Shown here: in pieces, positions 8,490 through 19,491 of the stretch
How positions within the stretch are numbered: the stretch's first letter is position 1
How the letters are laid out: each line of letters opens with the position of its first letter
Virus record (IMG/VR): IMGVR_UViG_3300042398_000065
Location: 1 to 20,029 of that record
Strand: one strand, 5' to 3'
Source: a virus
Length of the DNA stretch: 20,029 nt
Notes under the pieces: generated by a model
What the model was told of the DNA's origin: nothing
Databases searched by the model: none
The model's input: only the letters and a program-made list of their open reading frames with translations
Translations under genes and position numbers: made by a program

Positions 8490-9195
8490 CATAACAATAA
8501 TTCACACGTATTACAATGAAAGATCCTATCTCGAAACTCAGATCGAGAGATGGAACAACTACAATACTCCAGTAAATATTATATTGATTGATGACGGGTC
8601 TCAGATAGAACCTGCAGAAAATGTTCTTAAAGAACACACATTAAATGATAATATTAATTTTTCATTGTATAGAGTTACTGAAGATATTGGATTCAACGGT
8701 CATGGATGTCGCAATCTTGGTGCAAGATTAGCAAAATCTAACTGGTTATTGTTTCTAGATATAGACTACACATTACAACCATCCGATCTCAAAAGATTGC
8801 AAAACGAAACCCTCGATCTCGATTCTTGGTATGAACTGAATGCCAAGTTTAAAGGTCGAGGGGATTCGTATATGGCATTAAATCAATTCATGATACCCAG
8901 AAAACTTTTCTTAGATTCTGGTGGATATGATGAATCTTTCGTGCCATTTCATCACGGAGATCGTGAATTTTTATCTCAACTCGAACGTGATTACCAAAAG
9001 ATTAATTTAGATTGGATGTATCTAACATGTCGTCGTGGTGGTAGAAAAGCAAGAGTAGATGATACTATTAAGATTCCAGTTTATGACGACGAGAACATGT
9101 TATTATATACTCCGCGATTTGACATAGAATCTATTGTGCACAAAGATACTAAATTGAATTTTACATGGGAAGAAATTGTTATAAATAGGGGGTAA
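8476..9195 (+). CDS. Family 2 glycosyltransferase (GT-A fold)
   Basis: The product is about 239 residues. NITIIHTYYNERSYLETQIE opens the Rossmann-like nucleotide-sugar domain and LIDDGS follows. DIGFNGHGCRNLGA and the metal-binding LFLDIDY (DxD) are in the middle, and a GGYDESFVPFHHGDREFL acceptor-site block follows, as in GT2 enzymes. I chose the TTG at 8476 because AGGAG at 8461-8465 lies ten bases upstream. An ATG at 8452 has no ribosome site, and a TTG at 8479 is also possible. The donor sugar and acceptor are unknown. Targets could be virion proteins, DNA or host surface polymers, and the neighbouring dioxygenase makes a protein-modification role conceivable. Confidence 0.85.
   Translation: MLRNNITIIHTYYNERSYLETQIERWNNYNTPVNIILIDDGSQIEPAENVLKEHTLNDNINFSLYRVTEDIGFNGHGCRNLGARLAKSNWLLFLDIDYTLQPSDLKRLQNETLDLDSWYELNAKFKGRGDSYMALNQFMIPRKLFLDSGGYDESFVPFHHGDREFLSQLERDYQKINLDWMYLTCRRGGRKARVDDTIKIPVYDDENMLLYTPRFDIESIVHKDTKLNFTWEEIVINRG
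9180..9187 (+). promoter_or_regulatory. T4-type late promoter TATAAATA
   Basis: A perfect match to the T4 late promoter box is followed 26 bases later by the ATG at 9214. An AGGA ribosome site (9204-9207) lies between. It overlaps the last codons of the glycosyltransferase gene and marks the change from accessory to virion-related genes. Confidence 0.7.
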
Positions 9196-9213: not shown

Positions 9214-10329
9214 ATGCAAAGTTTCTTATCATTCCTTTCCGAAGCAGCAATTCTTCACATTGAGCATCCATCCGATAGACTATTTGATGGACCACAAGCA
9301 GCAAAGCATGCGCTTAAAACACTGAAGCAGGTTTCCGCCAGCAAAGCACCAACCATGACTCGTAAGATTGATGACAAAATGTCATTCAATGTTATTCGTA
9401 GAGCAGATGGTAAAGTCGGTGTTAAGTATAAGGGGACAGGTTCCTCTTACAATTTCTCCCAAGATGATATCGAAAAGCAGCATGGTCATAAACCATATCT
9501 CGCTAAACCACTTGGGTTACTTCTACAACATCTTCCTAAAGTTATTCCGCACACTCCAGGTGAGTATCAAGGCGGATACATGTCAGATCGTGAATCTAGA
9601 GAACATGAGAATGGGAAGATTTCTCACACACCAAACACAATTAAATATACGACGGATGCTGATAGTCCTGAAGGTAAAGCACTTGCTAAATCTAAAGTAA
9701 GTGCTGTTATTCACACTAAGATTACATCAGCAGGTGCAAAACCTCTGACAAATATGACTGGTTTCAACCATCATCCTGATGTTCATCTTGTTCAACATCT
9801 TGTGTCGAAAGACCACGCAGTTGTTCCGAAAGAATATAAGTCTATAGCAGATGAACATCTGAAAAAGGCAGAACAAATGATGGCGTCGCATACATATGAT
9901 CATCATGTTGGGCATGAGCGAACTCTTAGACAGTATATTAATTCAACTATTACTTCTGATGATACGCCCTCGACACAGGGGTATAAAAGTTATCTTGCCA
10001 AGTGGCATCAGAAAAAGATTGATGCAGTTAAAACTGACAAGGCGAAGTCTGCTAAGAAAAAGGTGATGGATGACATGATTGATCATGTCTCCAAACACCA
10101 AAAGCAATTCAATGATACCTTAGAAATACATCACCACTTGCAACAGGCAACTAATCACCTTTCGAGAGGATTAGATTCTTCTGGTGCAGGTGGTTTCACT
10201 ACATCTATCGCAGGTGCTGCAGCAGGTGGTGAAGGTCATGTTTTCAATGGTCTAAAGGTTGTTGACCGCCAAGGATTCTCAGCAGCAAATCGTGCTCGCA
10301 GTGAAATTTTGAGAGCGAGCAAAGGATAA
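9214..10329 (+). CDS. Ligase-like covalent nucleotidyltransferase candidate with capsid-targeting leader (DUF6267-like)
   Basis: The product has 371 residues and resembles the phage family I recall as DUF6267. It starts MQSFLSFLSE|AA, which mimics the T4 internal-protein leader MKTYQEFIAE|A, including a cleavable LxE|A at residue 10. Ligase-type motifs can be traced: motif I-like RKIDDKMSF with Lys51, GEYQGGYM near 117-123, and motif IV-like GEGHVF (Glu340) with motif V-like LKVVDR (Lys348) near the C-terminus. Between these lies a long His- and Lys-rich helical segment (about 190-320). Motif I has D instead of the usual G (KIDD for KxDG). The gene overlaps the next nucleotidyltransferase gene by one base. 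Enzymatic activity is inferred, not established for the family as far as I know. Confidence 0.7.
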   Translation: MQSFLSFLSEAAILHIEHPSDRLFDGPQAAKHALKTLKQVSASKAPTMTRKIDDKMSFNVIRRADGKVGVKYKGTGSSYNFSQDDIEKQHGHKPYLAKPLGLLLQHLPKVIPHTPGEYQGGYMSDRESREHENGKISHTPNTIKYTTDADSPEGKALAKSKVSAVIHTKITSAGAKPLTNMTGFNHHPDVHLVQHLVSKDHAVVPKEYKSIADEHLKKAEQMMASHTYDHHVGHERTLRQYINSTITSDDTPSTQGYKSYLAKWHQKKIDAVKTDKAKSAKKKVMDDMIDHVSKHQKQFNDTLEIHHHLQQATNHLSRGLDSSGAGGFTTSIAGAAAGGEGHVFNGLKVVDRQGFSAANRARSEILRASKG

Positions 10330-10940
10330 TGAGCGAAACGCATCACTTGACTATAGGTAGATTCGCACCTGTTCATGCTGGACATGCGCTTATGATCAAC
10401 CATGTTTTAAATGCCGCAAAGGCAGATAATGCTCACCACACAATCCTAACAACTGCAACACATGATGGTAATAAAAATCCTCTGACGCCAGAGCAAAAAG
10501 TAAAGCATCTAAAGCGTGCATTTCCATCTGCAAATATTGAAGCAATGAGCAAGGGTGCACCGACTCTGCTCCACCAACTGTCTAAGTTGCATAGTCAGGG
10601 CGTCAAGCATCTCGTCGTTCACGCTGGATCTGATAGAGCGCATGAGTATCATGCATTAATACACAAGTATAATGATGTCGAAAGTCGCCATGGTCATTAC
10701 AAGTTTGATTCGATTAAAGTAAAGACAGTGGGTGGAACTAGAACTGATGCTGATGAAGGCGTCGCTGGTGCATCTGCTACTAAGATGCGCAAGGCAGCAT
10801 CTTCTGGTGATGAGAAAACTTTTCATTCAATGGCACCAAGTTCTATGTCAACAGCACATAAACGTGAGATGTATAAAGACGTTCGTAGGGGTCTTGGAAT
10901 CCAAGAGTCAGTTTCATTCAAACAATTTCTAGGAATCTAA
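10329..10940 (+). CDS. HxGH-family nucleotidyltransferase (NMNAT/cytidylyltransferase-like)
   Basis: The product has 203 residues with an N-terminal nucleotidyltransferase signature GRFAPVHAGHALMI (His16, His19). A later GASATKMRKAA stands in the position of the ISSTxxR motif of NMNAT-like enzymes. HLVVHAGSDRAHEYH fills the central substrate strand. Such enzymes transfer a nucleotide from ATP or CTP to a phosphorylated partner, for example NMN. The product ends ESVSFKQFLGI, a C-terminal echo of the SFKxF leader seen at the start of neighbouring proteins. Its start overlaps the upstream stop, so it probably works with that ligase-like protein. The substrate cannot be told from sequence. Confidence 0.8.
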   Translation: MSETHHLTIGRFAPVHAGHALMINHVLNAAKADNAHHTILTTATHDGNKNPLTPEQKVKHLKRAFPSANIEAMSKGAPTLLHQLSKLHSQGVKHLVVHAGSDRAHEYHALIHKYNDVESRHGHYKFDSIKVKTVGGTRTDADEGVAGASATKMRKAASSGDEKTFHSMAPSSMSTAHKREMYKDVRRGLGIQESVSFKQFLGI

Positions 10941-10941
10941 G

Positions 10942-11769
10942 ATGGCACAGATTAGAGTTAATGACGAATTCTATGAGACCCATGGTCTTGTAACATCAGA
11001 TGGCGAGTTGGTAACAACTGCTAATCCTCTTCCCGTCACACAAGCAGGTGGTGCTGCTGTTTCTGAGAATAGCACGTTCGGACTAAACGTTGCTCGTGGT
11101 CTTGTTCCTGGTATGTCAGGGGTGTTCAAGGCAGGATATAACGAGGCATTTGCTAATGGTACAGAAGAAAGTTTCTGGTCGCACTCTGAAATATATCCTT
11201 GGTCAGCATGGTCTACACCTGGAACGTTGAGTCTTGTCAGTTCCTCTACCAGTGACACAGGAACAATTCTTATTGAGGGATTGAATGCATCTACATTTGC
11301 ATCACAAACTGAAACCATAACTCTTAACGGTACAACTCCTGTTGTCACCTCTCTTTCTTATGCTCGTTTGAATTACCTACATTACAGTGGAACATCGAAT
11401 ACAAATGTTGGTGAAATCCATGCTAACAGAAATGGAACCTGCGTAGGTCATATTGCACCACAAACAGGTATTGCGCAAGGTGCACAATATACTATTCCTG
11501 CTGGTTATACTGGATACATGTTGCAAGGAACTGCTAATATTGGTAAGGGCAATGACGGTAAAGGATACTTCAAGTATCGTCCATATGGTTCGTCGTTTCA
11601 ACATGCAATGACATTCTTATTATACCAGTCAACCTTTGATTATACATTTGCTGTTCCGCTTATGCTTCCAGAAAAGACTGATTTAGATGTTACAATGATT
11701 GCATCAAACTCTGGTACTGCGGCAACCTGCGAATATAGTTTGCTGTTGATAGCAAATCCAGAAGAATAA
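10942..11769 (+). CDS. Putative virion structural protein, beta-rich
   Basis: The product has 275 residues. It is rich in Ser, Thr, Gly and Asn and has no charged linkers. Features are an RVNDEFYETHG start, GVFKAGYNEAF, PWSAWSTPG, TETITLNGTTPV, QYTIPAGYTGYML and MLPEKTDLDVTMIAS. This pattern is familiar from beta-sandwich structural proteins of marine phages, where it is usually called virion structural protein. It starts two bases after the previous stop and is in the late block. Exact location in the particle (fibre, capsid decoration or tail) cannot be determined. The spanin gene follows after 21 bases. Confidence 0.65.
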   Translation: MAQIRVNDEFYETHGLVTSDGELVTTANPLPVTQAGGAAVSENSTFGLNVARGLVPGMSGVFKAGYNEAFANGTEESFWSHSEIYPWSAWSTPGTLSLVSSSTSDTGTILIEGLNASTFASQTETITLNGTTPVVTSLSYARLNYLHYSGTSNTNVGEIHANRNGTCVGHIAPQTGIAQGAQYTIPAGYTGYMLQGTANIGKGNDGKGYFKYRPYGSSFQHAMTFLLYQSTFDYTFAVPLMLPEKTDLDVTMIASNSGTAATCEYSLLLIANPEE

Positions 11770-11772
11770 ATA
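11765..11772 (+). promoter_or_regulatory. Possible late promoter variant (AATAAATA)
   Basis: AATAAATA differs in one base from the T4 late box TATAAATA. It lies 18 bases before the spanin ATG at 11791, overlapping the end of the preceding gene. The position suits a late promoter, but a one-mismatch 8-mer in AT-rich DNA is weak evidence. Confidence 0.3.
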
Positions 11773-11790
11773 TAGGAAAAGGAAATTGAT

Positions 11791-12303
11791 ATGTTCGGTA
11801 TGATCCCATTACCATATAAGTTACTGGCAGGTGTTGCCTTGATACTTGGTGTATTTGTATTTGGTTACATGAAGGGATCTGCTCATGCCGAAGTGGAACT
11901 GCAAAGATTTGCTGCTAAGAATGCAACATTAACTGCAGAAATGGAAAAGAAAAATTCAGAGATCTCCACAGAAGTGGTGACTCAATATGTTGACCGTGTA
12001 AATACAATTAGGGAAAAAGAATATGTCTATCGCGATGTCGCCAAAACTGTTGTGCCTTCTCAGTCTGTCCTTTCTAATGGTTGGGTGTTCACGCACGACG
12101 CTAGTGCCACAGGCAGTAATGCCGACGCCACCAGAGCTTCTGATGCGTCCCCCTCAGGTATTGCAGACAATCAAGCCCTCTTCACCATCATCGGAAACTA
12201 CGCAACCTGTCAAGCAAACGCCGAGCAATTGATTGCTCTTCAGAAATGGATTGCGGATAACAAGACAGCGATCGACGAACTAAACAAGAAAGCGAAAAAA
12301 TAA
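11791..12303 (+). CDS. Rz: Inner-membrane spanin (Rz-like)
   Basis: The product has 170 residues and the i-spanin layout. A short cytoplasmic start is followed by one membrane segment at about residues 9-27 (YKLLAGVALILGVFVFGYM). A long heptad-like helical region follows (ELQRFAAKNATLTAEMEKKN), then VDRVNTIREKEYVYRDV, and the C-terminal part is also helical. I-spanins pair with an outer-membrane lipoprotein to fuse the two membranes at the last step of lysis in Gram-negative hosts. A second gene for such a lipoprotein is nested in another frame inside this one (12023-12232), the classic Rz/Rz1 arrangement. An AGGAAAAGGAAA ribosome region precedes the ATG. The call rests on architecture and the nested partner. 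Confidence 0.82.
   Translation: MFGMIPLPYKLLAGVALILGVFVFGYMKGSAHAEVELQRFAAKNATLTAEMEKKNSEISTEVVTQYVDRVNTIREKEYVYRDVAKTVVPSQSVLSNGWVFTHDASATGSNADATRASDASPSGIADNQALFTIIGNYATCQANAEQLIALQKWIADNKTAIDELNKKAKK
12023..12232 (+). CDS. Rz1: Outer-membrane spanin lipoprotein (Rz1-like), nested
   Basis: The product has 69 residues in the +1 frame, fully inside the i-spanin gene. The signal sequence LLCLLSLSFLMVGC ends in a lipobox (MVGC, acylated Cys22). The mature chain is proline-rich with MPTPPELLMRPP, a PPELLRPP-like stretch familiar from Rz1 proteins. The lipid anchor would place it in the outer membrane, where it binds the i-spanin across the periplasm. AGGGA at 12010-12014 is a suitable ribosome site for the ATG at 12023; ATG 12035 is an alternative start. 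It is easily missed by gene callers because of the complete overlap. Confidence 0.82.
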   Translation: MSIAMSPKLLCLLSLSFLMVGCSRTTLVPQAVMPTPPELLMRPPQVLQTIKPSSPSSETTQPVKQTPSN

Positions 12304-14339
12304 TGGCAGAAAAAAAGTATATCGGTAAACCAGGAAAACAAGACGATCCTTGCTGGAAGGGATACGAGATGGTAGGCATGAAGAAGAAGGGTGGACGTCA
12401 GGTTCCTAACTGCGTGCCTGAAGCAACCGATATTTTTGCCAAAGCAAAGGCAGCAGTTGCAAAAAAAGCAGGTGCCAAACTAAAGATGGATCCAGATACT
12501 GGAACGCCTGATCATTTCACTGCTGCTCAAAGACGCAAGAAGGGTCTTGATGAAGCAGATTCTAAGAAGTATCCTAGAGAGGGATTCCCAGAAGAGGGTG
12601 ATTATGGTTATCACCCAAATCCTGGTCTGAAACCACAAGAGAGTGACAAAGACGAAGACATGGATGTCGCATATAAGAAAGCAACTGAGAAAGAGGGTCG
12701 CAAACCATTGAACGCAAAGATTACTGAAGGTGTGACTAATCCAGAAATCAAGAAAGCATATGCTGATCTTATAAAAACTCCTAGTGGTTCTGCTGAGCGC
12801 AAATCTGCTATCCGTCGTTACAAGAGTCTTCGTCAGAATGCTGTCAAGGAAGAATCGGAACTCGAAGAAAAGCGTGGACTGTGGGATAACATTCATGCCA
12901 AGCGTAAGCGCATTAAAGCAGGATCGGGTGAGCGTATGCGCAAACCTGGATCCGAGGGTGCGCCATCAGCAGCAGACTTGAAGGCATCGCAGACTGAAGA
13001 AGCGCATGGCATGTGGAAGGTAGACTTCCCTAAGCAACATGCTGGTAAGGCAGTCGCTGCTGGTTCGGTTCACGTTAAGGCGCAGAACACTGCTCATGCT
13101 CACAAGGTTGCAGCAAAGCGTGTCGGCGTTGATCACAAGATGTTCAAGTCGAAGGTTACTAAGTCGAGCATTCTTCCAGAGGGTGTTCAACTTGATGAAG
13201 TCTTGGGTAAGGACAACGAATGGGGTCGTCCAGAACTACGCAAGAAGTATGCTGCTATGACTCCAGGACAAGAAGGTATGACAGCAGATAAGATCCCATC
13301 TTTCGATCCACGCTACGACGATGTAACTACTCAATACTGCGGTGGCATCAGAGAAGGTTATCTTGCTGAGATTTCTGCCAAGGGTGCAGAGGCACGTGCT
13401 AAGTTCCAATCAAAAGTCAGACAAACACTGGCAGATCCTAAGAATATTGCACGAGCAAAGAAAACTCTTGCCAAGAAAAAAGAAGCAGAAAAAGCAAAAG
13501 AACCACCGCATCTTGTAATGCAACTTCGTAAAGCAGTAAGCATTGGTTCTAAGGTTCACTTCCAAGATGGTCAACATCATACAATTGCTCCTAACCATGC
13601 TGATGTATTCATGTCGAAGTATAACTCTGCCAAGTCTTCTATCGAAAAAGAAGCACTACAGAAGCGTGCTCACAAATCTCACGCTGAGTTTATGAGAACA
13701 ATTGCTGAAGAAGCGCATGAGAATTGCGGAACTCCTGATTGCTGCCAGATGTGCGACACCGCAGAAATGGGAACTCACCATGTTGATTCCTATGAAGCGC
13801 ACAAGGGTTCGGGCGATCAAATCTCACCAGTAATTTCACACGATGATGAAGATATCCGATTCCAAGATTTCGATGAAGAAGCATTCGAAAAAGAACTGGA
13901 AGCAGATGTCCTTGCTCTTTCGTGGGATGATTTAGTAGATCTCTATGACGAAGATGAAATTGAATATGATGAGTCGCCTGATGAAGAAGGCGAAGAACTA
14001 GAGGAAGGTATTACTCCTGCTGGTCGTCTCAAGAAAAAATTCAATGCGATGCGCACAAAGAGTCGTCGTATGATGGCAAGAAATATTGCAATCAAGCGTG
14101 TGTCTTCACCAGAAAAACTTAAATCTAGATCAATTCGTGCTGCTCGACGCATGGTATACAAGAGACTGTTGCGCAACAGAGATATTTCTACTGTTTCGGC
14201 AACAGAAAAGACACGTCTTGAAGGACAGATAAAGCGTATGGCACCAATGGTTGCTCGTCTATCTGTTAGAGTCATGCCAGCAGTTCGTAAACTTGAGCAA
14301 TCAAGAATCAAGAACAGCAGAACTAGAAAGAAAAAGTAA
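12303..14339 (+). CDS. Large mosaic basic protein, putative virion-associated
   Basis: The 678-residue product is a chain of modules known from marine phage proteins. These are DPCWKGYEMVGMKKKGG...VPNCVPE (16-40), a helical segment (145-185), GLWDNIHAKRKRIKAGSGE (192-210), MWKVDFPKQHAGKA (238-251) followed by an AHAHKVAAKR segment, and a Cys cluster CGTPDCCQMC (475-484). An acidic stretch WDDLVDLYDEDE (541-552) and a very basic helical tail (573-678) complete it. Sites of the form (I/L)xE|G, which the T4 head protease prefers, sit at residues 140-143, 291-294 and 566-569, close to module borders. The basic tail could bind DNA. The start overlaps the i-spanin stop (TAATG), and the stop overlaps the next start. 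No catalytic function is visible. Confidence 0.75.
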   Translation: MAEKKYIGKPGKQDDPCWKGYEMVGMKKKGGRQVPNCVPEATDIFAKAKAAVAKKAGAKLKMDPDTGTPDHFTAAQRRKKGLDEADSKKYPREGFPEEGDYGYHPNPGLKPQESDKDEDMDVAYKKATEKEGRKPLNAKITEGVTNPEIKKAYADLIKTPSGSAERKSAIRRYKSLRQNAVKEESELEEKRGLWDNIHAKRKRIKAGSGERMRKPGSEGAPSAADLKASQTEEAHGMWKVDFPKQHAGKAVAAGSVHVKAQNTAHAHKVAAKRVGVDHKMFKSKVTKSSILPEGVQLDEVLGKDNEWGRPELRKKYAAMTPGQEGMTADKIPSFDPRYDDVTTQYCGGIREGYLAEISAKGAEARAKFQSKVRQTLADPKNIARAKKTLAKKKEAEKAKEPPHLVMQLRKAVSIGSKVHFQDGQHHTIAPNHADVFMSKYNSAKSSIEKEALQKRAHKSHAEFMRTIAEEAHENCGTPDCCQMCDTAEMGTHHVDSYEAHKGSGDQISPVISHDDEDIRFQDFDEEAFEKELEADVLALSWDDLVDLYDEDEIEYDESPDEEGEELEEGITPAGRLKKKFNAMRTKSRRMMARNIAIKRVSSPEKLKSRSIRAARRMVYKRLLRNRDISTVSATEKTRLEGQIKRMAPMVARLSVRVMPAVRKLEQSRIKNSRTRKKK

Positions 14340-14626
14340 TGTTATCTTTCAAAGAATTTATAACTGAAGCAGCAGTTGACGGTAAAGGTCATAAGAGTTC
14401 CACTGGTGGTCTGACTCAGAAGGGTCGTGACTATTACAACAACAAGTATGGCGGCAATCTACAGGCACCAGTAACAACCAAACCTTCGAAGTTGAAGGCA
14501 GGCAGCAAAGCAGCGAATCGTCGCAAGTCTTTCTGCGCTAGAATGTCTGGCGTCGAAGGTCCAATGAAAGATGAAAAGGGTCGCCCGACTCGCAAAGCAC
14601 TAGCACTAAGAAAATGGAATTGTTAA
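14339..14626 (+). CDS. Small basic protein with T4-like capsid-targeting leader (DUF6321-like)
   Basis: The product has 95 residues. It begins MLSFKEFITE|AAVDG, nearly the same as the T4 internal-protein targeting sequence MKTYQEFIAE|A, with the predicted cut after Glu10. The rest matches a family I recall as DUF6321: STGGLTQKGRDYYNNKYGG, then KAANRRKSFCARMSGVEG, then KDEKGRPTRKALALRKWNC. It is strongly basic, with conserved Cys residues in SFCARM and at the extreme C-terminus. This fits a small internal head protein or DNA-associated protein injected with the genome. The molecular function of the conserved part is unknown. It overlaps the preceding stop and is followed at once by the Dps-like gene. 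Confidence 0.78.
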   Translation: MLSFKEFITEAAVDGKGHKSSTGGLTQKGRDYYNNKYGGNLQAPVTTKPSKLKAGSKAANRRKSFCARMSGVEGPMKDEKGRPTRKALALRKWNC

Positions 14627-14627
14627 T

Positions 14628-15065
14628 ATGGATGAACTGAACACATCAATGAAGATAGTGCTCGCAAATACTTTTGCGATGTATTTTAAAGCGCATGGGC
14701 ATCACTGGAATGTAGAAGGCAAAGACTTCTCCCAGATGCACGACTTCTTTTCTGGTATCTATGAAGAACTATTCGCTGCAGTTGATCAGATTGCTGAGCA
14801 GATTCGTGCGCTAGATGATTATGTGCCATATAATATGACAGAACTCACATCAATGACAACAGTTAAAGAATCAAATATCTTTGGGGTTGATGTTGCTGGT
14901 ATGCTCGCGGATCTTATTGATGCTAATGGTTCTGTCATAGAAGCATTAAATTCTGCACATAAATTGGCGGAAGCAGAGGGTAACAGAGGTCTTGTTAATC
15001 ATATCGAAGGGCGTCTTGATGTTCATGCTAAGCATGGTTGGATGCTTCTCGCAACCTCAAAGTAA
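14628..15065 (+). CDS. dps: Dps-like ferritin-family protein
   Basis: The product has 145 residues. Dps proteins form 12-subunit shells that bind iron and protect DNA from oxidative damage. The signature AHGHHWNVEGKDFSQMHDFF leads into YEELFAAVDQIAEQIR. Mapped on E. coli Dps, the ferroxidase ligands are His26 (H51), His38 (H63), Asp53 (D78) and Glu57 (E82), but position 42 (D67) is Ser. The C-terminal helix (HIEGRLDVHAKHGWML) matches the family. There is no extended Lys-rich N-terminal tail. It sits between two virion-related genes and just before a late promoter, so it could be made late or be associated with the particle. The family call is strong; iron oxidation is uncertain because of the changed ligand. 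Confidence 0.88.
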   Translation: MDELNTSMKIVLANTFAMYFKAHGHHWNVEGKDFSQMHDFFSGIYEELFAAVDQIAEQIRALDDYVPYNMTELTSMTTVKESNIFGVDVAGMLADLIDANGSVIEALNSAHKLAEAEGNRGLVNHIEGRLDVHAKHGWMLLATSK

Positions 15066-15073
15066 TATAAATA
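15066..15073 (+). promoter_or_regulatory. T4-type late promoter TATAAATA
   Basis: A perfect TATAAATA lies directly after the Dps-like stop codon and 26 bases before the ATG at 15099, almost the same spacing as at 9180-9187. A GAGGA ribosome site lies between. It is one of the few true intergenic gaps in the late block. Confidence 0.72.
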
Positions 15074-15098: not shown

Positions 15099-16559
15099 AT
15101 GAGACTAGAACAAGTTATCAGGTCAACAATGACTGAAGCGATGGACATGGACGGCAGACTCGACCAGTTAGTTCGTGCTGGTTTGATGCCAACAAGTTCG
15201 CTGCCACTTTTGAAGCGTGCCATTTCTAGAATGCATGCTGGTATGTCACTTCAGGGTGCTGAGCGTGATGTAATGAACATGTTCATCAGTTCGATGATGT
15301 TCATTGTTCTCGGCGATGACACTGTATTCAATAAAGCACGTGCTGGTGCTAAGACTTATGCTACTGAAGCAAAAGAAAAGACAGAGTATGACTACGAAGG
15401 TGACATGGCAATGGGTCAACTGAAGTCAATCATTGCTAACTCGCAACGTATGCATGATATGCTTTCCGATGACACCAATCTCCCTGAGTGGGTTCAGTCG
15501 AAGATTACTTTGGCAGAAGATTATATCTCAACCGCAAGCAACTACATGCAAGGCGAGATGAATGAAGAGCAGATCGACGAACTTTCAAAGAATACTATGC
15601 TGACGTATCTTTCTGCCAATAAGAAATCAGACAAATCTGCTCAAGAAAAGGGTGACTACAGCAAATCAGATAAGCGTATGCGTGGCACTGACATGGCAGT
15701 CCGTAAGTATACAGCAAAACCTGGATCGAAGTATGTCCGTGTTCCTGCCACAGAAGAAGTGCAGATCGACGAACTTTCAAAGAAGACCATGGGTTCCTAC
15801 ATCAAGAAGGCATCTGGTGCTGAAAAACCAAAGAATGTAATGGATCCAAAGAATGTTCCTCTGACAAAAATCGCTGCTTACCAAGGTGACAGTGAAACAG
15901 GACACTTCGGTAAGAGATTCAATCAGGCAACCTATGATAAGGCAGAACGTCTTCACAAGAACCGTTCACAAGGAATCACAAGAGCTGCTGATAAACTTGC
16001 CAAAGAAGAAGTCGAACAAGTCGATGAGATCTCGAAAGCAATGGCAGGTCGCTATATTAACAAAGCGAAAAACTCTATCGATCTAACTGCTTGGAGACAA
16101 GGATACAAAGAAGCAGGTGCTGGTAGTCCTTCGAAGCATATGGAAAAGAAGTTGTCTAAGCGCCACAAAGGTATCGAAACTGCAGTCAAGAAGTTGACCA
16201 AGGAAGAGTCCGAAAACCTTGACGAACTGTCAAAGGCAACGATGGGTCGTTACATCAACAAGGCTGCCACAAAAATGGGGAGTCAAGGTGTTACTGCTGG
16301 TCTGAAGATTGCTGCTGATGAAAAGTCAAGCAAGAACTTCAAGGATATGGGCAAGCGCGAAAAGGGTATCTCGAGAGCAGTTAACAAACTGACTAAAGAA
16401 GATATTGATGCAGTAAAGAAAATGAACGAGTCATATAAGACTGCATTTGAAACTGCTCTTACAGAATATAACGTCAAGTCTCCCTCGGAACTTGATGAAT
16501 CGAAAAGAAAAGAATTTTTCAATCACGTAGATCTAGAATTTAAAAAGGGAGACAATTAA
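15099..16559 (+). CDS. Repeat-containing virion-associated protein (DELSK repeats)
   Basis: The product has 486 residues. The N-terminal part (1-150) is helical and Met-rich (MRLEQVIRSTMTEAMDMDG; GADRVM-like repeats are absent). From about residue 156 there are four imperfect repeats of roughly 63-84 residues. Each starts with (E)EQIDELSKxTMxxYI and most end with KRxKGIxxAVxKLTKEE; starts are near residues 156, 219, 303 and 369. The C-terminus (ALTEYNVKSPSELDESKRKEF) is a short module common in marine phage proteins. The leader MTE|A at residue 13 is a weaker match to the head-protease site than in the neighbours. A late promoter precedes it, and its stop overlaps the next start. Function is unknown; an internal or structural role is inferred. 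Confidence 0.72.
   Translation: MRLEQVIRSTMTEAMDMDGRLDQLVRAGLMPTSSLPLLKRAISRMHAGMSLQGAERDVMNMFISSMMFIVLGDDTVFNKARAGAKTYATEAKEKTEYDYEGDMAMGQLKSIIANSQRMHDMLSDDTNLPEWVQSKITLAEDYISTASNYMQGEMNEEQIDELSKNTMLTYLSANKKSDKSAQEKGDYSKSDKRMRGTDMAVRKYTAKPGSKYVRVPATEEVQIDELSKKTMGSYIKKASGAEKPKNVMDPKNVPLTKIAAYQGDSETGHFGKRFNQATYDKAERLHKNRSQGITRAADKLAKEEVEQVDEISKAMAGRYINKAKNSIDLTAWRQGYKEAGAGSPSKHMEKKLSKRHKGIETAVKKLTKEESENLDELSKATMGRYINKAATKMGSQGVTAGLKIAADEKSSKNFKDMGKREKGISRAVNKLTKEDIDAVKKMNESYKTAFETALTEYNVKSPSELDESKRKEFFNHVDLEFKKGDN
15561..16400 (+). repeat. Four in-frame imperfect tandem repeats
   Basis: The repeat units begin near 15564, 15753, 16006 and 16204. The first two share an exact 24-base block (15569-15592 and 15761-15784) encoding QIDELSK plus flanking residues. 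The other two are diverged at DNA level but conserved in protein (EISKAMAGRYINKA, ELSKATMGRYINKA). Spacing is about 190-255 bases. Confidence 0.8.
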
Positions 16560-18947: not shown

Positions 18948-19491
18948 ATTTGTAGATGCACTGATAACATATCGTATTCTAAGGTTGTTAACTACACCTT
19001 TCGATCAACAGGATGCATTTCGTCTAGGATTGATCGATAAGCATGGTAATCGATTGAAGAAAGAGAATGAACTAAATACTACTGAAGAACAAGAGGCATA
19101 TAGTCTACTTCATAGAATGGTATTTAGATTGAAACGAATTATCGAGAAGGTTCCTATGGACAATAAGAACTTCCTCTCGTTCGCCACAGCAGTTGCTTTG
19201 GTGCGGGAAGGTATCGAATATGATGATGAAATATTAGAGGAAGTTTTTTACATGACACAAGAACGTCAAGATGTTAAAGATCTTGCTGAAGAACTCGAGT
19301 CAGGAAAGATTCAGTCATTCAAGCAGTTTGTCGAGGAGATGGGTGTTGCTGGTGGTGGGGTTGCTGGGATTGGTATTCCGCATCCAACAAAGGCAAATCA
19401 AGCAGAACCTGGACTTACCAAGAGTCAACAGAAAAAATATAAAAAGAAAAACAAAGCAGGTGTACCTGCTACATTGATTAGAAGGAAGTAA
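18940..19491 (+). CDS. Conserved phage protein with SFKQF segment, putative internal virion protein
   Basis: The product has 183 residues. The N-terminal part (VDALITYRILRLLTTPFDQQDAFRLGLIDKHGNRLK...EEQEAYSLLHRMVFRLKRIIEKVP) matches a family spread over several phage groups. At residues 126-133 it contains SFKQFVEE, similar to the capsid-targeting leaders of other proteins here. A Gly-rich segment (GVAGGGVAGIG) follows, then a basic tail (KSQQKKYKKKNKAG). In this family the helical part may bind other virion proteins. The location of the SFKQF segment in the middle, not the start, is notable. Function is not established. Confidence 0.68.
   Translation: MSRFVDALITYRILRLLTTPFDQQDAFRLGLIDKHGNRLKKENELNTTEEQEAYSLLHRMVFRLKRIIEKVPMDNKNFLSFATAVALVREGIEYDDEILEEVFYMTQERQDVKDLAEELESGKIQSFKQFVEEMGVAGGGVAGIGIPHPTKANQAEPGLTKSQQKKYKKKNKAGVPATLIRRK

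Follow-up and report, generated by a model that had tools for sequence, protein, structure and literature searches.

Probable capsid-targeting leaders of the T4 internal-protein type on a DUF6267 protein and a small basic protein of a T4-like phage

Two proteins encoded on an IMG/VR fragment begin with ten residues resembling the leaders of T4 internal proteins, which raises the question of whether this phage loads an enzyme-like protein and a small basic protein into its head and delivers them with its DNA. The window, meaning the whole 20 kb stretch analyzed here, carries the polymerase, UvsX and gp41-type helicase genes of a T4-like myovirus, and we consider its phage to be an aquatic T4-like phage. 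Its products, named by gene start, include a DUF6267 protein (9214; 135 bits against PF19782, Pfam gathering score 27), a cytidylyltransferase (10329), a spanin-like protein (11791), a mosaic protein (12303), a DUF6321 protein (14339; 91.8 bits against PF19846, gathering score 28.5) and a ferritin/Dps-like protein (14628); both products thus belong to their DUF families. The mature part of the DUF6321 product has a net charge of about +15. Cyanophages have the same gene order, pol-uvsX-gp41 .. DUF6267-cytidylyltransferase. The window is a 20 kb record and not a whole genome, and related loci and contigs were used in its place. Coordinates are collected in Table 1.

Table 1. Positions of the leaders, tags, genes and promoter-like element in the window.
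Feature	Coordinates	Strand	Remark
Late-promoter-like element TATAAATA	9180..9187	+	26 nt ahead of the 9214 start
Capsid-targeting leader MQSFLSFLSE	9214..9243	+	Exact T4 CTS register; expected cut after E10
DUF6267 protein, possible ligase-type nucleotidyltransferase	9214..10329	+	PF19782, E 6e-39
Cytidylyltransferase, DUF6267 partner gene	10329..10940	+	Homologs in S-SM1, S-SZBM1, S-SCSM1 and S-CREM2 virions
Cytidylyltransferase C-terminal mirror tag IQE/SVSFKQFLGI	10899..10937	+	Kept in 44/48 relatives
Mosaic protein; modules small, most of them basic, with [LIVM]xE at the joints	12303..14339	+	Probable head-protease polyprotein
RGLWDNIHAKRKRI module (residues 190-229 of the 12303 product)	12870..12989	+	Separate small gene in podoviruses
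Capsid-targeting leader MLSFKEFITE	14339..14368	+	Expected cut after E10; T7-like phage DUF6321 without leader
DUF6321 small basic protein	14339..14626	+	PF19846, E 4e-26
15099 product N terminus, MRLEQVIRSTMTE/A	15099..15137	+	Possible protease site, no targeting motif
Internal tag SFKQFVEE/M of the 18940 product	19315..19338	+	Conserved in G001 and G002

Two further gene products of the window are described for completeness. The ferritin/Dps-like gene (14628-15065) lies immediately 3′ of the DUF6321 gene in the same gene run, and its product, which has no leader, is possibly a DNA-protecting protein made late. The product of 1567-2211, judged by its sequence only, has a signal-peptide-like start and a DRGH motif, comparable to secreted non-specific DNA/RNA endonucleases.

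The original prediction placed the leaders MQSFLSFLSE/A (9214) and MLSFKEFITE/A (14339) in the register of the T4 capsid-targeting leader (CTS), with a putative cut after residue 10, and both were confirmed as stated: each matches the T4 CTS at its known key positions, aromatic residues 4 and 7, Leu or Ile at 8, and Glu at 10. Mutational work in T4 attributed targeting to residues 4 and 7, and cutting to residues 8 and 10 (PMC9026906). The accompanying claim that T4 IPI, IPII and IPIII all begin MKTYQEFIAE/A held only partly, as the exact form is that of IPII and IPIII and the IPI leader is merely similar (PMC9026906). An exact-register rule, ^M..[FYW]..[FYW][LIVM].E, was built from the T4 residue rules and set before any virion data were inspected. 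It matched two starts in the window, where 0.02 were expected, and over 1418 distinct ORFs from related loci it matched 50 first ATGs versus 0 of 5101 internal Met positions (Fisher p = 4e-34). Because the query families are over-represented in that sample, 50/1418 is not a genome-wide rate; there are about 0-3 matches per genome. The rule-bearing starts form approximately 30 sequence clusters, among them several DUF6267 lineages, cytidylyltransferases, a HAD phosphatase and DUF6321. In the T4 control (150 kb) the rule recovered ipII, ipIII and gp61.1 and did not match IPI, and it gave no match in the T7-like controls S-RIP1 and HTVC168P.

The leader is an add-on to the DUF6267 and DUF6321 domains. 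E10 is invariant in CTS-bearing DUF6267 proteins and is directly followed by a variable linker; leaderless cyanophage DUF6267 (26% identical) begins at the domain itself. In cyanophage S-H38 the leader element lies within the chain, immediately ahead of DUF6321 (IPSFAEFIYE/GAAW). AF2 models give low confidence and no structure for the leader and predict the domains well. The leader is retained in 50/50 distinct cyanophage cytidylyltransferases, in which position 9, the x of LxE, is among the most variable leader positions. Against the CTS reading, the P1′ residue after the leader is frequently Glu, Ser or Asp instead of Ala.

Leader-like starts were also seen on other proteins. A HAD-type phosphatase (DIDETLF; L171:2934-3545, or 62934-63545 of the relative G001), encoded elsewhere in relatives' genomes and matching the polynucleotide kinase family phrog_415, has the leader MIGFKDYIFE and a late-promoter element, and is tagged in G002, G003 and L095 too. 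In Methylophilales phage Melnitz, the adjoining genes 15-18 (L352:254-4917), DUF6267 and cytidylyltransferase included, start MQGFKTFLSE/A, MLTLINFSKYITE/D, MKKFSELTSE and MKKFSEIIE/A. The phrog_1742 family (S-H38, L193:28689-29018; S-SCSM1_30; S-SZBM1 122311-122628) has a CTS followed by (S/I)(V)NISGDFNGNLY(V/I)N; it is conserved close to DUF6321 or terminase genes and is unreported in two virion proteomes. The product of T4 gene 61.1 (L195:18966-19130) has a CTS, then a segment 14/28 identical to the mature gp23 N-terminal arm, then a lysine-rich tail; the segment aligns with T4 gp23 (L197:4945-6510) exactly at the cut site, scoring 82 versus 61 for the best of 2000 shuffles. Cyanophage virion proteins S-SCSM1_97 and S-CREM2 ORF160, and SSM1_197, resemble such gp61.1-like capsid-arm mimics.

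Counting against the CTS reading, the 20 kb fragment contains no gp21-type protease gene, and no gp22 scaffold gene either. In relatives, the protease family PF03420 was found on 7 of 18 related contigs and in 8/8 isolate myoviruses checked; in G001, which encodes a DUF6267 protein 93% identical to the window's, the protease lies with gp20, gp22 and gp23. The lack of a gp21-type head protease in the genome had been named as grounds for refutation, and this did not occur in the relatives. The element TATAAATA stands 25-32 nt upstream in 38 of 39 distinct CTS-DUF6267 relatives and upstream of none of 32 CTS-less cyanophage DUF6267 genes, and in G001 it also precedes gp22, gp23 and the tagged HAD protein. 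Late expression of the 9214 gene is inferred, from sequence alone, through this conserved element. A further point against the CTS reading is the S-PM2 DUF6267-cytidylyltransferase fusion, which has the element without a leader, so the element is not a perfect leader marker. The 14339 gene lies downstream within its gene run.

Published mass spectrometry shows the virion location of leader-bearing homologs. The cytidylyltransferase T4-GC190 was detected in S-SM1 particles (PMC3037559), and its gene, SSM1_190, starts MKKFSAFLNE/A. The enzyme was also found in virions of S-SZBM1 (PMC9146016), S-SCSM1 (PMC9602691) and S-CREM2 (PMC10665884), where it starts MRFRQFIIE/A (shorter by one residue), MKSFLQFLKE/A and MKNFSSFLTE/A, respectively; the leader is therefore present on 4/4 cytidylyltransferases found in cyanophage virions by this method. 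In S-CREM2 the strict rule as first set, with ATG starts, gave two matches, both detected in the virion. With GTG starts and Phe at position 8 admitted, the widened rule matched 4 of 50 detected ORFs and none of the 159 that went undetected (p = 0.003); the proteins that fit besides the cytidylyltransferase are a SAM hydrolase (MKDFDSFLEE/F), a kinase (VKRFDAFLTE/E, GTG start) and ORF136 (MQTFSMFFSE/D). The leaderless DUF6267 neighbor is absent from the rows shown of the S-SZBM1 virion table. Against the CTS reading, three small proteins that bear the tag are missing from the virion proteins reported for S-SCSM1 and S-SZBM1. Tagged enzymes are thus present in purified cyanophage particles, and these phages therefore probably deliver preformed enzymes to the cell along with the DNA. 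As a separate observation, the virion Cas9-like nuclease of S-CREM2, ORF12 (L519:4205-6814), has LRFASFMAE/AAVD at residues 17-25 and ends TFRDFLN; it is possibly an injected nuclease.

We consider it very likely (probability about 0.85) that the leaders are working CTSs of the T4 internal-protein type and that their cargo is packaged, cut and released with the DNA; cleavage, injection, activity and purpose are inferred. Late promoters would drive the tagged proteins, the leader would bind the prohead scaffold core through its F..F(L/I) residues, and the gp21-type protease would cleave after (L/I)xE, leaving a mature protein free inside the head that would exit with the DNA at infection. The predicted cargo in the window phage is the DUF6267 protein, the DUF6321 protein, probably pieces of the 12303 mosaic and, via its C-terminal mirror tag, the cytidylyltransferase. 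Its most likely role would be in repair or counter-defense, acting on nucleotides or nucleic acids within the first minutes of infection. Head packaging, as originally proposed, is well supported by the CTS register, by gp21, gp22 and gp23 in the 93%-identical relative, by the late promoters and by virion mass spectrometry of homologs. Injection with the DNA and leader cutting in this phage remain inference only; a point against the reading is that N-terminal cutting has yet to be demonstrated in a marine relative.

Weaker and displaced versions of the tag had also been flagged, and these flags held. The 15099 product begins MRLEQVIRSTMTE/A, and MSLEQTIKDTVMAE/S in relatives, so that an xE/[AS] site is retained and F..F is absent; a late-promoter-like ATAAATA lies ahead of it at 15067-15073. 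The SFKQFVEE at residues 126-133 of the 18940 product lies ahead of a lysine-rich tail. The 10329 product, flagged for ending SVSFKQFLGI, carries a conserved mirror-image tag, GIQE/SVSFKQFLGI. The pattern (I/L)xE/(S/A/T)..F..(F/W)(L/I) is found at the extreme C-end of 44 of 48 single-domain cytidylyltransferase relatives without an N-leader. The chains of the five N-leader relatives stop where the C-tag would begin, and none carries both. We infer that the C-tag is a C-terminal propeptide cut on the cargo side; such processing is also known for T4 Alt and gp21 (PMC9026906). If confirmed, the C-terminal version is new.

The 12303 mosaic is probably a substrate of the same protease. In pelagiphage HTVC168P the RGLWDNIHAKRKRI module is its own 49-residue gene, between the scaffold and capsid genes and adjoining DUF6321. 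Of 23 module contexts, which are not fully independent, 21 have an [LIVM]xE site directly upstream (background 8%, p = 5e-21), and one of the two exceptions is a short, podovirus-like stand-alone copy. Cyanophage S-SZBM1_139, which contains a CWKGY module and is encoded beside the cytidylyltransferase, is a virion protein. The simplest reading, inferred and likely, takes the 12303 product for a polyprotein that the head protease cuts into pieces.

The description of the 9214 product as an enzyme candidate held in part, in that DUF6267 resembles ligase-type nucleotidyltransferases, not significantly. K51xD, E340GxV and K348 are invariant in both clades, with motif I reading KIDD in the window clade versus KWDG in the cyanophage clade; the window protein thus lacks the KxDG form of ligase-type motif I, with Asp in place of Gly. 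The leading Foldseek matches of the DUF6267 model in the PDB were all DNA/RNA ligases, none significant (best E 0.039, prob 0.85). The DUF6267 profile matched no PDB chain, and hhalign against T4 Rnl2 and gp30 was not significant, the Rnl2 alignment ending on the EGYV motif. Because no fold match is significant and motif I has Asp, DUF6267 is not filed as ligase-type; we lean slightly toward its working like a divergent ligase-type nucleotidyltransferase, with enzyme activity inferred. For DUF6321, a fold search gave no match and nothing was found in the literature searched. By analogy with T4 IPI and IPIII, it is plausible, though untested, that an injected set of DUF6267 and cytidylyltransferase, with the tagged HAD phosphatase encoded elsewhere in relatives, would serve nucleic-acid or nucleotide repair or counter-defense.

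The rival that survives best, and remains possible, is that the leader does target the prohead but that the proteins do their work there, for assembly, end processing or condensation of the DNA, without being injected as effectors. In its favor are the small size and basic character of DUF6321 and the 12303 modules, whose podovirus homologs sit between scaffold and capsid genes. Against it are the host-directed tagged cargoes of S-CREM2 (SAM hydrolase, kinase and Cas9-like protein) and the action of T4 IPI and IPIII in the host (PMC9391042). A second rival, confined to the cytidylyltransferase, is that the C-terminal SFKQFLGI serves sliding-clamp binding and not packaging. Clamp clients in T4-like phages frequently end in short hydrophobic motifs; the peptide is at the extreme C-end, the gene is close to the replication genes, and the window polymerase ends LEDLFG. 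However, the tag core is not acidic and resembles SFKQF, SFTQF and SFKEF in the N-leaders that these phages carry; an (I/L)xE/(S/A/T) site lies immediately upstream, and C-tag and N-leader are mutually exclusive, the N-leader standing in for the C-tag, so that this rival is unlikely and disfavored without being excluded. Finally, that the leaders are chance or generic amphipathic starts and the virion enzymes lysate carry-over is all but excluded: the motif is short and the S-SCSM1 authors themselves raised carry-over (PMC9602691), but a chance origin is ruled out by the internal-Met and T7-like controls, the cytidylyltransferase recurs in four independent virion proteomes, and all four S-CREM2 matches were detected.

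The packaging reading can be extended. A bolder version, which could as readily prove wrong as right, is that a single tag, in N-terminal, internal and C-end-mirrored (cut cargo-side) positions, serves marine and freshwater T4-like phages for loading exchangeable enzymes (DUF6267, cytidylyltransferase and HAD phosphatase; in S-CREM2 SAM hydrolase, kinase and Cas9-like nuclease) and polyproteins that the head protease would dice into small basic peptides. In the open-licence literature searched, we found no earlier description of marine T4-like phages employing the CTS so widely, on enzymes, internally or at the C-end. Cyanophage virion proteomes repeatedly show enzymes without an explanation of their entry, and the leader supplies one. 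A simple sequence rule would predict which proteins travel in the head, so that what very abundant marine phages inject could be read from sequence and tested, largely with existing mass-spectrometry data.

Among known systems, DUF6267 is like the DNA/RNA ligase-type nucleotidyltransferases in having the motifs KxD, EGxV and K arranged in the expected order, with ligases as its leading structural matches, and unlike them in its motif I Asp (window clade), a helical part of approximately 120 residues between the motifs, and the lack of a significant fold or profile match. The 10329 protein is homologous to the virion cytidylyltransferase/NMNAT-like proteins of S-SM1, S-SZBM1, S-SCSM1 and S-CREM2, several of which are encoded beside DUF6267; the cyanophage enzymes are tagged at the N-end, whereas in the window clade the cytidylyltransferase is tagged at the C-end and the N-leader is on DUF6267. 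T4 Alt, a virion ADP-ribosyltransferase processed at both ends, is a precedent for a head-borne enzyme and for C-terminal processing (PMC9026906), but homology to Alt was rejected, there being no ADP-ribosyltransferase match among the window cargo and alt being missing from cyanomyoviruses (PMC2984593). Unlike the T4 internal proteins, the cargo here is unrelated to theirs and includes the enzyme-like DUF6267, the tag also occurs internally and mirrored at the C-end, P1′ is often Glu, Ser or Asp, and cleavage is so far unproven. The tag system itself is that of T4 and already known: as in IPII and IPIII, with IPI similar, there is a ten-residue leader in the same register, with key residues 4, 7, 8 and 10 and an (L/I)xE site, together with, in relatives, genes for a gp21-type protease and the gp22 scaffold, as well as a late-promoter element and, in the 14339 product, a small basic cargo.
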